Shown here: in pieces, positions 7,518 through 34,676 of the stretch
How positions within the stretch are numbered: the first letter of the stretch is position 1
How the letters are laid out: each line of letters starts with the position of its first letter
Source of the DNA: Modicisalibacter coralii
GTDB lineage: Bacteria > Pseudomonadota > Gammaproteobacteria > Pseudomonadales > Halomonadaceae
Assembly: GCF_004117855.1 (NCBI RefSeq)
Contig: NZ_QWBW01000007.1
Coordinates: forward strand, 124,517 to 188,516
Direction: 5' to 3'
Length of the DNA: 64,000 nucleotides
Program-made: the position numbers and the translations under genes
Notes under the pieces: generated by a model
Told to the model about the DNA's origin: nothing
Seen by the model: the letters and a program-made list of their open reading frames with translations, nothing else
The model's database searches: none

Positions 7518-7828
7518 TACAGCACCATGTGGACGCGACCCGAGGCCTTGAGCGAGGCGAACAGCGTACGCAGCTGCTCCTCGCCGGTGGCGGTGATGGT
7601 CACGCGCACCGAGCGGTACTTGCCATTGCGGCTGTCGACGGCGGTGATGGTGGTGCGGTCGACGCCCGGAGCGTGCTGCTCGACGATGTCGATGACGGTG
7701 GCCTGGAAGTCGTCCGCGGCGTCGCCGACGATCTTGATCGGATAGTCGCAGGGATATTCGACCTTGGGCGCGCCGGTGCCGGCCTGTGGCGCCTCGACAC
7801 GCAGATCCCGAAGGGACTTGTCGGTCAT
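7517..7828 (-). CDS. ybeD: DUF493 / YbeD family protein
   Basis: A 103-residue cytoplasmic protein with the DUF493 fold: [13 protein letters not shown], a helix [17 protein letters not shown], and the strand [21 protein letters not shown]. The family sits between dacA and lipB across gammaproteobacteria and has an ACT-like ferredoxin fold; its role is unknown. The start ATG at 7828 is preceded by GAGTGA. An upstream GTG/ATG extension to 7924 reads through non-homologous sequence and is not favoured. A 117-base gap separates it from dacA. Confidence 0.9.
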
Positions 7829-7945
7829 GATGGTCACTCGATGAAGGGTATCTGCGCGTATTCTACGCAACCTCGCCAGATCGACCAAGGTCGCGACGTC
7901 GCCGCGACCCTGGCCCGCCGCCACGCGGCGGCGGGGACATGCGGA

Positions 7946-9178
7946 TCAGAACAGCCCGGTGAAGAACAGCAGCACCGCGTCCCAGATGCGCTTGAAGAAA
8001 CCGCCCTGCTCGACGCTCTGCAGCGCGACCAGCGGTTCTTCGCGGATCACCTCCTCGCCGAGCTTGACCTGCAGGGTGCCCAGTTGCTGCCCGGCCTGCA
8101 CCGGGGCCTTGATGGTCTCGGGAATGTTCAGCTTGGCGGTCATCTCGTCGCGGCGCCCCTTGGGCACGGTCAGATACAGGGCATCGGTGACACCGAGCTT
8201 GAGGGTATCCTGGGCGCCGCCCCAGATCCGCGGCTGGTTGAGTACCGCGCCACGCTGGTAGAGCTTGAAGGTGTCGAAGAACCGGAAGCCGTAGCTGAGC
8301 AGTTTCTGCGATTCCTGAGCGCGCGCCTCGTCGGAATTGGTGCCCATCACCACCGAGATCAGGCGCATGTCGTCCTGCTTGGCGGACGACACCAGACAGA
8401 AGCCCGCGGCGTCGGTGTGGCCGGTCTTGAGCCCGTCCACCGACGGATCGCGCCACAGCAGCCGGTTGCGGTTGGGCTGACGGATGCCGTTGTAGGTGAA
8501 GTACTTCTCCGAATACATCTCGTAGTGATCGGGGAAGTCCTGGATGATGTGCCGGGCGATGTTCGCCAGGTCCCGCGCCGAGGAGTAGTGATCGTCGTGC
8601 GGCAGGCCGGTGGCGTTGGCGAAATGGGTGTTCTTGAGCCCCATGCGCTGCGCCTGCTGGTTCATCAGGTCGACGAACGATGGCTCGGACCCGGCCACGT
8701 ACTCGGCCAGCGCCACGCTGGCATCGTTGCCGGACTGGATGACCACGCCGTGCAGCAGGTCGTTGACGCTGACCTGGGTGCCTTCGCGCACGAACATCCG
8801 CGAGCCGCCGGTGCGCCAGGCATGCTCGCTGATCGTGACCATGTCGTCGTCGGCGATGTTGCCGTCGTTGATCTCCTTCTCGACGATATAGGCGGTCATC
8901 ATCTTGGTGAGACTCGCCGGCGGCAGGCGCTGGTCGGCGTTGTGTTCGACCAGTACCTCGCCGCTATTGGCGTCGAGCAGAATCCACGAGGAGGCATTGA
9001 GACTGGGCGGTGAGGGAATCATCGGCTCGGGCAGGCTCTGCTGCATCGACGAATCCGGCTTGGGCTGCGAGGCTTGCTGATCCTCGGCCATGGCGGGCTG
9101 GACCAACGCGATGCAGAGCGTGGTGACGGCGGCGGCCAGTCCCTGCCAGGAGCGAGAAGAAAGAGTGGACAGTCTCAT
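7946..9178 (-). CDS. dacA: D-alanyl-D-alanine carboxypeptidase (PBP5/6 family)
   Basis: Low-molecular-weight penicillin-binding protein that trims the terminal D-Ala of muropeptides in the periplasm. The 410 residues show a signal peptide (residues 1-31, ending AMA), the SxxK motif SLTK (89-92), SGN (149-151) and KTG (251-253). A C-terminal PBP5-associated domain ends in an amphipathic membrane anchor (FKRIWDAVLLFFTGLF). The start ATG at 9178 has GAGA nine bases upstream; a GTG at 9217 would add 13 residues before the signal peptide and is less likely. Part of the rod-shape/wall cluster. Confidence 0.93.
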   Translation of the reverse strand: MRLSTLSSRSWQGLAAAVTTLCIALVQPAMAEDQQASQPKPDSSMQQSLPEPMIPSPPSLNASSWILLDANSGEVLVEHNADQRLPPASLTKMMTAYIVEKEINDGNIADDDMVTISEHAWRTGGSRMFVREGTQVSVNDLLHGVVIQSGNDASVALAEYVAGSEPSFVDLMNQQAQRMGLKNTHFANATGLPHDDHYSSARDLANIARHIIQDFPDHYEMYSEKYFTYNGIRQPNRNRLLWRDPSVDGLKTGHTDAAGFCLVSSAKQDDMRLISVVMGTNSDEARAQESQKLLSYGFRFFDTFKLYQRGAVLNQPRIWGGAQDTLKLGVTDALYLTVPKGRRDEMTAKLNIPETIKAPVQAGQQLGTLQVKLGEEVIREEPLVALQSVEQGGFFKRIWDAVLLFFTGLF

Positions 9179-30374: not shown

Positions 30375-32309
30375 ATGCGTCATCGGTTGTCGTTGTCACT
30401 CTCGCTGCTGCTCTTGCTGCTGCTCGCCCTCCCCGCCCAGGCCGGCTTGTTCGACGACAACGCATCGCCTGGCAACGCCGAGACCTTTCTGCCGGTTCAC
30501 CAGGCCTTCCAGGCCAGCGCCTGGCGTGACGACGACACCCTCTACGTGGGCTTTGCCAACGCCGATGGCTACTATCTCTACCGCCACCGTTTCGCCGTGG
30601 CCAGCGCCACGCCGGAGGTGACGTTCGGCGAACCACGTCTGCCGGCGGGCAAGTTCAAGCACGACGACTACCTCGGCGATGCCCACGTCTTCTATCACCA
30701 GGTGGTCCTCGCCATCCCCCTCGACGGCGATGTCGCCGACGACACGGCGGTCTCCGCCCGGATCACCTTCCAGGGCTGCGCCGACGCCGGGCTCTGCTAC
30801 CCGCCGGAGACGCTCACCCTCGAGGCGCTCCCCGGCTCGCCCCCGGGCCGCTTCGCCGCGGCGGTCGACGACGCCACCCTGCCCCTGTCGACGCAACCGG
30901 CCCCATCGACCGGCAGCACCGCCTCGATGAGCAACGACGCCGCCTCTCGTTCCAGAGTAGCGGCCGCTGCCGCCAGCGACAGCCCCCGCAGCGAGGATGG
31001 CCACTTCAGCGCCCTGTTGCGCCAGGCATCGGTGCCGACGGTGCTGGGGCTGTTCTTCCTCGCCGGCGTGGGGCTGACCTTCACGCCCTGCGTCCTGCCG
31101 ATGCTGCCGATCCTCGCCGCGATCATCGTCGGACGCGGCGCGAGCCGCGGCCGCGCACTGGCCCTGTCGGGCAGCTATGTCGCCGGCATGGCGGTGACCT
31201 ACGCCCTGGTCGGCGTCCTCATGGGCCTGTTCGGTGCCGGGCTCAATCTGCAGGCCCGCCTGCAATCGCCCTGGGTGCTGGTGCCCTTCGCCGCGCTGTT
31301 CGTGCTCTTCGCCCTGGCGATGTTCGGCACCTTCGAGCTGCGTCTGGCGCCGGGGCTGGCCCAGCGCGTCGACGGCTGGCAGCAGCGTCTGCAGCGCAGC
31401 GGTCCGCTGGGCCTGGCGCTCGCCGGCGCGCTGTCGGTGGTGGTGGTCTCGCCCTGCGTCTCCGCGCCGCTGGCCGGGGCGATGGTCTTCATGGCCTCCA
31501 CCGGCGATGCCCTGCTGGGCGGCCTGGCGTTGCTCGCGCTGGGGCTGGGCATGGGCGTGCCGCTGTTGCTGGTCGGGGCCTTCGGCGGCACCTTTCTGCC
31601 CCGGGCCGGTGCCTGGATGAACGGCATCAAGACCGCCTTCGGCCTGCTGCTGCTGGGCGTGGCAATCTGGCTGGTCGAGCGCTTGCTGCCGGGGCCGCTG
31701 ACCCTGCTGCTGTGGAGCGCGCTGGCCATGGGCACGGCACTGGCCCTGGGGGCCCTGCCCCCCGGGCAGCCCCCGGGCTGGCCCCGCCTGCGTCAGTTGG
31801 CCGGCCTGTTGCTGCTGGGCTGGGGGCTGGCGCTGATCCTCGGCGCGGCCCAGGGCGGCAGCGACCCGCTGCGCCCCCTGGCCCGGCAGGATGGCGCCGA
31901 CGCGAGGAGCGCCGCCAACGACCTGGCCTTCGTGCGAGTGACCGATCTCGCCGGCCTCGAGCGCGAACTCGACCGTGCCGCCAGGCTCGGCCAGCCCGCC
32001 TTCGTCGACGTCACCGCCGACTGGTGCATATCCTGCCGGATCATGGAACGCGAGGTCTTCCCGGCCCCGAGCGTGGCCGCCCGACTCGCCGACTATCACC
32101 GAATTCGCGCCGACGTCACCGACACCGGCCCCGAGACCCGGGCCCTGCTCGACCGCTTCGGCCTGTTCGGCCCCCCGGGCCTGCTGTTCTTCCGCGACGG
32201 CAGGGAACTCGGATCGGCCAGGATCCAGGGCGAAGTCGATGCCGAGGCACTCTCCCGCCACCTTCGCCGCCTGGCCGAATCCGCCCCGAAAGCCACCCCG
32301 GCGTCGTGA
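30375..32309 (+). CDS. dsbD: thiol:disulfide interchange protein DsbD
   Basis: Carries reducing power across the inner membrane to periplasmic thiols. 644 residues: signal peptide (1-23), N-terminal alpha domain with its Cys pair (FQGCADAGLCYPP), a Ser/Ala linker, eight membrane helices with one Cys in FTPCVLPMLPI and one in VVSPCVSAPLAG, and a C-terminal thioredoxin-like domain with WCISC (C551, C554). Longer than E. coli DsbD (565) owing to the linker. In related genomes dsbD is followed by aroQ-accB-accC; here aroQ is reduced to a relic. Confidence 0.94.
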   Translation: MRHRLSLSLSLLLLLLLALPAQAGLFDDNASPGNAETFLPVHQAFQASAWRDDDTLYVGFANADGYYLYRHRFAVASATPEVTFGEPRLPAGKFKHDDYLGDAHVFYHQVVLAIPLDGDVADDTAVSARITFQGCADAGLCYPPETLTLEALPGSPPGRFAAAVDDATLPLSTQPAPSTGSTASMSNDAASRSRVAAAAASDSPRSEDGHFSALLRQASVPTVLGLFFLAGVGLTFTPCVLPMLPILAAIIVGRGASRGRALALSGSYVAGMAVTYALVGVLMGLFGAGLNLQARLQSPWVLVPFAALFVLFALAMFGTFELRLAPGLAQRVDGWQQRLQRSGPLGLALAGALSVVVVSPCVSAPLAGAMVFMASTGDALLGGLALLALGLGMGVPLLLVGAFGGTFLPRAGAWMNGIKTAFGLLLLGVAIWLVERLLPGPLTLLLWSALAMGTALALGALPPGQPPGWPRLRQLAGLLLLGWGLALILGAAQGGSDPLRPLARQDGADARSAANDLAFVRVTDLAGLERELDRAARLGQPAFVDVTADWCISCRIMEREVFPAPSVAARLADYHRIRADVTDTGPETRALLDRFGLFGPPGLLFFRDGRELGSARIQGEVDAEALSRHLRRLAESAPKATPAS

Positions 32310-32480
32310 CGTCCGGGGCGATCAGAAACGCTGTTCACGGCTGGCTGGACATGGCCGGCGTTTTTCGGCAAACTCCGCCGACACCGGCTTAATTGACGTT
32401 CAGATGCGGGATCGTGCAACAACCTGCGGTGATCTGAGCAAATTTCGAACAGGTTAACAGCGCCTTTCAAGGACCTCGCC

Positions 32481-32855
32481 ATGGCTCGACTCCTGGCACT
32501 CCACGGCCCCGACCTTCCGGGGCCCCGAGACCCCGACGACCCTGGCTCCATCGCACGCGACGCCACCGATCGGCACGCCGGCACGCGCTTGCCGCGTGAG
32601 CGCATCGCCCTGAGCGGCGCCGCCATCCCGTTCGTCGAAGCCTCCGCTCCCCTGCCCGTTCGCGAATCCCGTTATCGCCACGCCCGTCTTTACAACGTGG
32701 CCGCGAACACGCTGGCCGGATACGTGGCCGCCGACGCCGGACGGCCAGCGCACACCGCCCGGCACCGATTCGTCCAGCACCGGCATTCACCAACGCCCAG
32801 ACTCACTCACCATCGAGAGAACCCGACATGGATATTCGCAAGGTCAAGAAACTGA
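32481..32855 (+). pseudogene. aroQ: decayed 3-dehydroquinate dehydratase (aroQ relic)
   Basis: An open frame that begins like AroQ (MARLLALHGPDL versus the usual MARLLVLHGPNL) with a good ribosome site (AAGGA). It loses about 60 internal residues, then resumes with [19 protein letters not shown] (family: IPFIEVHLSNVHKREPFRH). The catalytic Tyr of ELYG, the NPAAFTHTS block and the EVHLSN His are gone. The frame then runs 28 bases into accB in another phase. The location, dsbD-(aroQ)-accB-accC, is where intact aroQ sits in Pseudomonas and relatives. It cannot be an active dehydratase; whether the 124-residue product is made is unknown. The 171 bases before it hold no other gene. Confidence 0.65.
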
Positions 32856-33307
32856 TCGAGCTGCTCGAGGAATCCAACATCAGCGAGATCGAGATTCAGG
32901 AAGGCGAGGAATCGGTTCGCATCAGCCGTCATCCCAACGGCGCACCGGCAGCGCAGCCGACGATGCCGCCGGCCCACTGGGGCCATGCCCCGGCGGCGTA
33001 TCCCGCCCCGACCGGCGGCCATGCCGCGCCCGCCGAGAGCGACGCCGAGGCCCCGGCGCCCGCCCAGCCCACCGGCCATGCCGTGACCTCGCCGATGGTC
33101 GGCACCTTCTACCGTGCCCCGGCCCCCGGCGCCAAGCCGTTCGTCGAAGTCGGCCAGAGCGTCAAGAAGGGCGAAACCATCTGTATCGTCGAAGCCATGA
33201 AGATGATGAACCAGATCGAGGCCGACAAGGACGGCGTGATCGAGGCGATCCTGGTCGAGGACGGCGAGCCGGTCGAATTCGACCAGCCGATGCTGCTCAT
33301 CTCCTGA
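32828..33307 (+). CDS. accB: acetyl-CoA carboxylase biotin carboxyl carrier protein
   Basis: 159 residues: N-terminal helix ([23 protein letters not shown] in parts), a Pro/Ala linker (about 38-84), and a C-terminal biotinyl domain with the protruding thumb and EAMKM (biotin Lys K125). It carries the carboxyl for malonyl-CoA synthesis. GAGA stands before the ATG. It pairs with accC 28 bases downstream. Confidence 0.96.
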
Positions 33308-33335: not shown

Positions 33336-34676
33336 ATGTTGGAAAAGGTACTCATCGCCAACCGCGGCGAGATCGCCCTGCGCATCCTGCGCGCCTGCAA
33401 GGAGCTGGGCATCCGCACCGTGGCGGTTCACTCCAAGGCCGACCGTGAACTGATGCACGTACGCCTGGCCGACGAGGCCGTGTGCATCGGCCCGGCCTCC
33501 TCGGCCCAGTCCTATCTCAACATCCCGGCGCTGATCAGCGCCGCCGAGGTCACCGACGCCAGCGCCATCCATCCCGGCTACGGCTTTCTCTCCGAGAACG
33601 CCAACTTCGCCGAACAGGTCGAGCGCTCGGGCTTCGTCTTCGTCGGCCCGCGCGCCGAGACCATTCGCCTGATGGGCGACAAGGTCAGCGCCATCGAGGC
33701 GATGAAGAAGGCCGGCGTGCCCACCGTGCCCGGCTCCGACGGCCCGCTGCCCGACGACGACGAGGCGATGCTGGCCACGGCGCGACGCATCGGCTACCCG
33801 GTGATCATCAAGGCGGCGGCCGGCGGCGGCGGGCGCGGCATGCGTGTGGTGCATACCGAGTCCAACCTGCTCTCCGCGGTCAGCGTGACCCAGACCGAAG
33901 CCAAGAACGCCTTCGGCGACGGCACCGTGTACATGGAGAAATTCCTCGAGCAACCGCGCCACGTCGAGGTCCAGGTGCTCGCCGACGGCCAGGGCAACGC
34001 CATCCATCTCTACGACCGCGACTGCTCGCTGCAGCGCCGTCACCAGAAGGTGCTCGAGGAAGCCCCGGCCCCGCAGATCGACCCCGAGGCGCGCGCCCAG
34101 GTGCTCAAGGCGTGTACCGACGCCTGTCTCGAGATCGGCTACCGCGGCGCCGGCACCTTCGAATTCCTCTACGAGAAGGGCCAGTTCTTCTTCATCGAGA
34201 TGAACACCCGCGTGCAGGTCGAGCACCCGGTCACCGAGATGGTCACCGGCGTCGACATCGTCAAGCAGCAACTGCTGATCGCCTCGGGCCAGCCGCTGTC
34301 GATCCGTCAGTCGGACATCGAGGTCAAGGGCCACGCCTTCGAGTGCCGGATCAACGCCGAGGATGCCCGCACCTTTATGCCCTCCCCGGGCAAGGTCGAC
34401 CTTTACCACGCGCCCGGCGGTCTCGGCGTGCGCATGGACTCGCACCTGTATACCGGCTACAGCGTGCCGCCCTACTACGACTCGCTGATCGGCAAGCTGA
34501 TCACCTGGGGCGCCGACCGCACCAACGCCCTGACGCGCATGCGCAACGCCCTCGACGAACTGCTGGTGGAAGGCATCAAGACCAACATCGACCTGCAGAA
34601 GGACCTGGTTCGCGACAGCGCCTTCCAGCAGGGCGGCGTCAACATCCACTACCTGGAAAAGAAACTCGGCGGCTAA
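33336..34676 (+). CDS. accC: acetyl-CoA carboxylase biotin carboxylase subunit
   Basis: 446-residue ATP-grasp enzyme that carboxylates AccB. Signatures: [52 protein letters not shown] (each in parts). The ATG at 33336 fits E. coli AccC; an upstream TTG at 33321 adds five residues without homology. Second gene of accBC. An inverted copy of the dispersed repeat begins seven bases after the stop. Confidence 0.96.

Follow-up and report, generated by a model that had tools for sequence, protein, structure and literature searches.

A probable aroQ pseudogene between dsbD and accB of Modicisalibacter coralii, eroding in a genome with a second aroQ

The open frame at positions 32481-32855 of the plus strand in the window (the whole stretch of 64,000 nucleotides analysed here) is very probably a pseudogene of aroQ, the gene for type II 3-dehydroquinate dehydratase, which was probably made redundant by a second AroQ and is now drifting and eroding. 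An initial annotation of this DNA had described a decayed aroQ whose reading frame was kept. The distribution of differences over codon positions bears out the decay; selective keeping of the frame finds no such backing, as chance alone would leave it open about as often.

The frame begins with the ATG at 32481, runs for 124 codons and ends at 32855, 28 nt inside accB. It is flanked by dsbD (stop ending at 32309) and accB (start at 32828), and 518 nt separate the dsbD stop from accB in the source genome. A candidate ribosome site, AAGGA at 32469-32473, lies seven nt 5' of the ATG. The features of the locus, in window coordinates, are the following.

30375..32309, plus strand: dsbD, the upstream neighbour (ATG placed by eye; C-terminal part matched in the loci of relatives; name taken from the initial annotation)
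32346..32374, plus strand: promoter-like pair TGGACA - 17 nt - CAAACT (loose-pattern search of family loci)
32375..32462, plus strand: leader ending in CAGGTTAACAGCG (GTTAAC-type element in family loci)
32481..32855, plus strand: probable aroQ relic, an open frame of 124 codons with 28 nt overlap with accB (profile, DNA and codon-position tests)
32481..32561, plus strand: remnant of the AroQ N-terminus, profile positions 1-29 (3.9 bits alone; DNA match of leader and first codons to intact loci)
32601..32732, plus strand: remnant of the AroQ C-terminal third, profile positions 87-131 (9.7 bits alone; relic-body DNA test)
32815..32821, plus strand: ribosome-site-like GAGAGAA 5' of accB (by eye in alignments; similar stretch in the loci of relatives)
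32828..33307, plus strand: accB (matched in 58 of 58 genomes)
33336..34676, plus strand: accC (reading frame; accBC tree)

General protein family profiles did not recognise the frame. Pfam, with E values as high as 10 admitted, gave no DHquinase_II match and NCBIfam no DHquinase match, a result which, taken alone, would refute the AroQ descent proposed by the initial annotation. LPD28 matched weakly (E 0.072; 13.2 bits, where the cut-off is 27), which we take as chance. The stronger test was a lineage-specific profile built from the 13 AroQs at the acc locus of relatives, and here descent was upheld: the frame scored 15.3 bits, its match being made up of two colinear stretches (profile 1-29 and 87-131), while the best of 2000 shuffles, 1577 of which gave a score, reached 8.0 bits. 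At the DNA level, the leader and the first codons of the relic match those of intact aroQ loci. The relic body, with leader, first codons and accB start removed, was compared with nine intact loci and with 1000 codon shuffles; its best alignment reached 45.4 bits (genome G013) against 38.3 for the best shuffle. This DNA test hangs on G013, since G011 and G016 gave only 36.8 bits, below the best shuffle. Alignments that include the conserved accB start had E values of 1e-14 (G013), 7e-13 (G011) and 2e-9 (G014). AroQ ancestry of the frame is thus supported by sequence comparison for residues 1-27 and 41-84, and the AroQ-like start with its ribosome site and the recognisable C-terminal third of the initial annotation both hold.

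What has been lost differs from the first description. The missing middle amounts to about 44 codons rather than about 60 residues, as judged from two alignment gaps, 61 and 71 nt long and 132 nt in sum, and further gaps of 6 and 3 nt; the stretch between the two large gaps cannot be placed in the alignment. The frame is unshifted because 61 and 71, though only when summed, make a multiple of three and the side gaps are 6 and 3 nt, a point that tells somewhat against the pseudogene. We take the catalytic residues of AroQ to be the Tyr in PEVYG and the His in IELH, together with an Arg. These segments had been thought deleted; both are retained and changed by substitution, to PDDPG and VEAS, so that the Tyr and His positions are substituted and the Arg position is kept. 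The full-length domain of 138 positions expected of a functional type II enzyme is absent, and the native aroQ stop codon is gone. Compared with aroQ genes at the acc locus (PF01220; e.g. in G011 and G013), the relic shares the place between leader and accB, the start region and the colinear N- and C-terminal remnants, but it is without the 44 or so codons, the catalytic positions and the native stop and is under little or no constraint.

Differences from G011, G013 and G014, counted by codon position over 59 codons chosen by alignment, are 24/24/24, 24/24/21 and 24/24/35, as against 10/6/48 and 10/10/61 for pairs of intact aroQ genes (134 codons). Purifying selection, as a functional type II 3-dehydroquinate dehydratase would show it, is therefore not seen in the relic, and its coding constraint is gone or almost gone. 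The excess at third positions in the comparison with G014 (35 versus 24) is expected if part of the divergence came before the loss. Leftovers of sister species showed no protein-level constraint either in G002/G003 (21/18/12) or in G007/G009 (10/9/12); the pair G001/G005 (12/6/12) is uninformative.

The locus is the place of aroQ in relatives, as initially claimed. In the family sample (37 genomes, including the source genome, G000), AroQ lies directly before accB in 13 and only elsewhere in 23; in the remaining genome, G030, the search, made with the type II profile, gave no match with E of 0.001 or below. A larger family search of whole genomes, irrespective of locus, found a type II match in 249 of 250. 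In the genus sample of 14 genomes, aroQ stands at the acc locus in six; the other eight have it elsewhere and carry leftover DNA at the acc locus. None of six named Halomonadaceae-type loci (L062-L067) has AroQ before accB; a Marinospirillum locus (L068) does. The dsbD-accB gap is 674-906 nt where aroQ is present (measured in five of the 13 acc-type genomes), 410-423 nt in G001, G002, G003, G005 and G010, 322 nt in G009 (G007 left out) and 194-333 nt in 16 loci from other genera that have no aroQ there. Among the aroQ-less genus members, the AroQ profile gave a signal at the locus in G000, G007 and G009 only, the latter two retaining C-terminal remnants alone (13.4 and 13.6 bits). A 29% partial AroQ match at the acc locus of G007 is read as its relic. 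The five genomes G001, G002, G003, G005 and G010 showed no profile signal at the locus, so that the leftovers of G001, G005 and G010 are assigned to aroQ by position alone and those of G002 and G003 by position and by the start region that they have in common with the relic. In the G007 leftover (L004) an ATG in frame with accB opens into accB, and a gene caller might therefore place the accB start as many as 62 codons too far upstream.

Upstream of the relic, a loose-pattern search located the box CT(G/A)GACA...CA(A/C)ACT in 35 of the 37 family loci, with or without aroQ (missing in G016 and G019), and a GTTAAC-type element follows 3' of it in 28 of these 35. A consensus promoter scan did not call the box at 32346-32374; the consensus scan gave two overlapping terminator-like hairpins at 32338-32359. 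RNAalifold predicted no pairs and no common fold in 19 leader sequences, Rfam had no match in 32200-32900, and RNA structure around the accB start was unremarkable (z-score 0.42). We infer a promoter and leader common to (aroQ-)accBC, which would explain the preserved upstream DNA without any relic ORF. A need for the leader, one of the reasons first offered for the kept frame, is in keeping with this conservation; as a reason for the frame it finds no support. The region 32346-32462, with the box and the CAGGTTAACAGCG element, may serve the acetyl-CoA carboxylase genes as an operator.

The source genome holds one intact, divergent AroQ at C18:74433-74846, and a type I dehydroquinase was not found in it, which answers the earlier call for a second dehydroquinase gene. 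The gene upstream of it is presumably glnE-like. Such a gene was present in nine of the 23 loci of elsewhere AroQs, the own one included, 15 of these loci covering only about 6 kb. The 14-kb loci of G003, G007 and G009 are without a glnE-like gene near the elsewhere aroQ, so the neighbourhood varies. A search of the six acc-type genus members for a relic of the second aroQ within 1.5 kb after glnE gave nothing better than E 1.6; the frame after glnE there is aminotransferase-like, presumably ilvE. In L176 a 246-codon frame (7526-8266) separates the second aroQ from the glnE-like gene; the aroQ loci of G001, G002, G005, G007 and G010 have a match to it as well. Beside glnE it had a 52% match in acc-type G019, and in the six genus members of the acc type nothing better than E 0.21 turned up there.

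In a tree of 41 AroQ rows, the 13 acc-locus AroQs form one clade (100/98) and 24 others a second (98/93); the long-branched elsewhere AroQ of G023 joins the acc side, and three AroQs constitute a distant third type. G016 has an acc-type AroQ plus a third-type AroQ. Bacteria of a single kind may have two divergent type II enzymes, for example AroQ1 and AroQ2 of Ralstonia solanacearum (PMC10171560); here, by contrast, the acc-locus type and the main elsewhere clade of 24 occur together in none of the 37 genomes. An accBC tree of 30 of the 37 genomes (G004, G008, G012, G015, G017, G030 and G031 left out) unites G000, G002, G003, G007 and G009 in one clade (99/96) and groups G001, G005 and G010 with G006 and G013, both acc-type (94/94, marginally below the starred limit). 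Since the tree places the aroQ-less genus members in two groups, two separate losses in the genus are likely; the starred branches force no more than one change.

That the frame is a chance one, unrelated to AroQ, is hardly credible. The silence of Pfam and NCBIfam on dehydroquinase, the single alignment (G013) that beats the best shuffle and the abundance of chance frames nearby (the surrounding 6.5 kb contain six antisense ATG frames with 115 codons or more) would suit it, but the lineage profile, the relic-body DNA and the start-region alignment to intact aroQ strongly disfavour it, and the frame sits at the aroQ locus of relatives. A new role of the shortened product, another proposal of the initial annotation, could make use of 124 open codons with a usable start. 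It is very improbable, for the frame has no significant family match in Pfam or NCBIfam, its changes are spread over the codon positions with little or no coding constraint left, and no similar protein frame is apparent in the other genus members.

The relic might also be translated as a leader ORF whose frame is kept open and whose amino acids are free, either because ribosomes shield about 350 nt from Rho-dependent termination or because the 28-nt overlap couples translation to accB. Substitutions blind to codon position would fit this as well. The aroQ ATG and the AAGGA stretch are kept in G000, G002 and G003, and when frames of the eight genus members without aroQ were scored from the first ATG lying no more than 90 nt from the leader element, five (G000, G001, G005, G009, G010) reached +28 in accB; that of G007 continued into accB in frame with it. 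This stop is, however, dictated by accB's own sequence. Openness itself is expected: dinucleotide shuffles of the relic gave P of about 0.36, and simulated neutral decay left the frame open with P 0.20-0.46 over the gene body and 0.10-0.19 when followed up to accB, about what chance would give at such composition. High GC content and a scarcity of stops make the relic frame look open. The shuffle P values of G000, G001, G002, G003, G005 and G010 multiply to about 0.0016; as these species are related and share sequence, the values are not independent, and the product, which ignores kinship, is a mildly suggestive hint at kept frames and no proof. Moreover, G007 and G009 no longer have the aroQ start in the alignment, G002 and G003 have a frame that is open for 70 codons and ends some 50 nt short of accB, and in G001, G005 and G010 the ribosome site, judged by eye, seems eroded. 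In the 16 aroQ-less loci of other genera the longest ATG frame before accB has 43 codons, and four loci have none. Coupling to accB, which had been suggested as a reason for the frame, is thus not supported, since some relatives have lost the start or stop early. We regard a translated leader ORF as unlikely, and give a marginally smaller chance still to the version in which ribosome site and frame are kept as a free-sequence leader ORF until deletion shortens the accBC leader and makes the ORF unnecessary.

We therefore favour an eroding aroQ pseudogene without a working peptide. Its homology exceeds that of shuffles, an intact counterpart lies in the same place in relatives, and a second gene, predicted to serve the same function, is there. 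In the ancestor, aroQ would have lain between the leader and accB. The divergent second AroQ, predicted to be active, would then supply the shikimate step, and the acc-locus aroQ, on this proposal, became redundant because the second enzyme covers that step; its loss probably followed the replacement. The relic would have lost some 44 codons, the catalytic residues and the stop codon and would now drift. As the promoter-like leader is conserved and probably still drives accBC, aroQ DNA would be deleted stepwise, towards the short leader of genera without aroQ at the acc locus.

Bacterial pseudogenes commonly decay after replacement by a paralogue or a foreign copy. The relic resembles such ordinary decay in its stepwise erosion with a substitute elsewhere; it differs in that leftovers of several sizes are visible within one genus at one operon position. 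In the parts seen of the literature matches listed for accB/aroQ operons, accB leaders, pseudogene frames and translational coupling, Rho in pseudogene decay and Halomonas dehydroquinase, this locus is unreported. If the reading as a leader ORF were true after all, it would offer a testable reason why some operon pseudogenes keep their frames. For GC-rich genomes in general, the fact that the frame of a pseudogene is open says little about function. Beside accBC, the genus and its relatives present a natural erosion series of a single gene, from the intact aroQ through a long relic and shorter leftovers to its disappearance, with the likely substitute identified.
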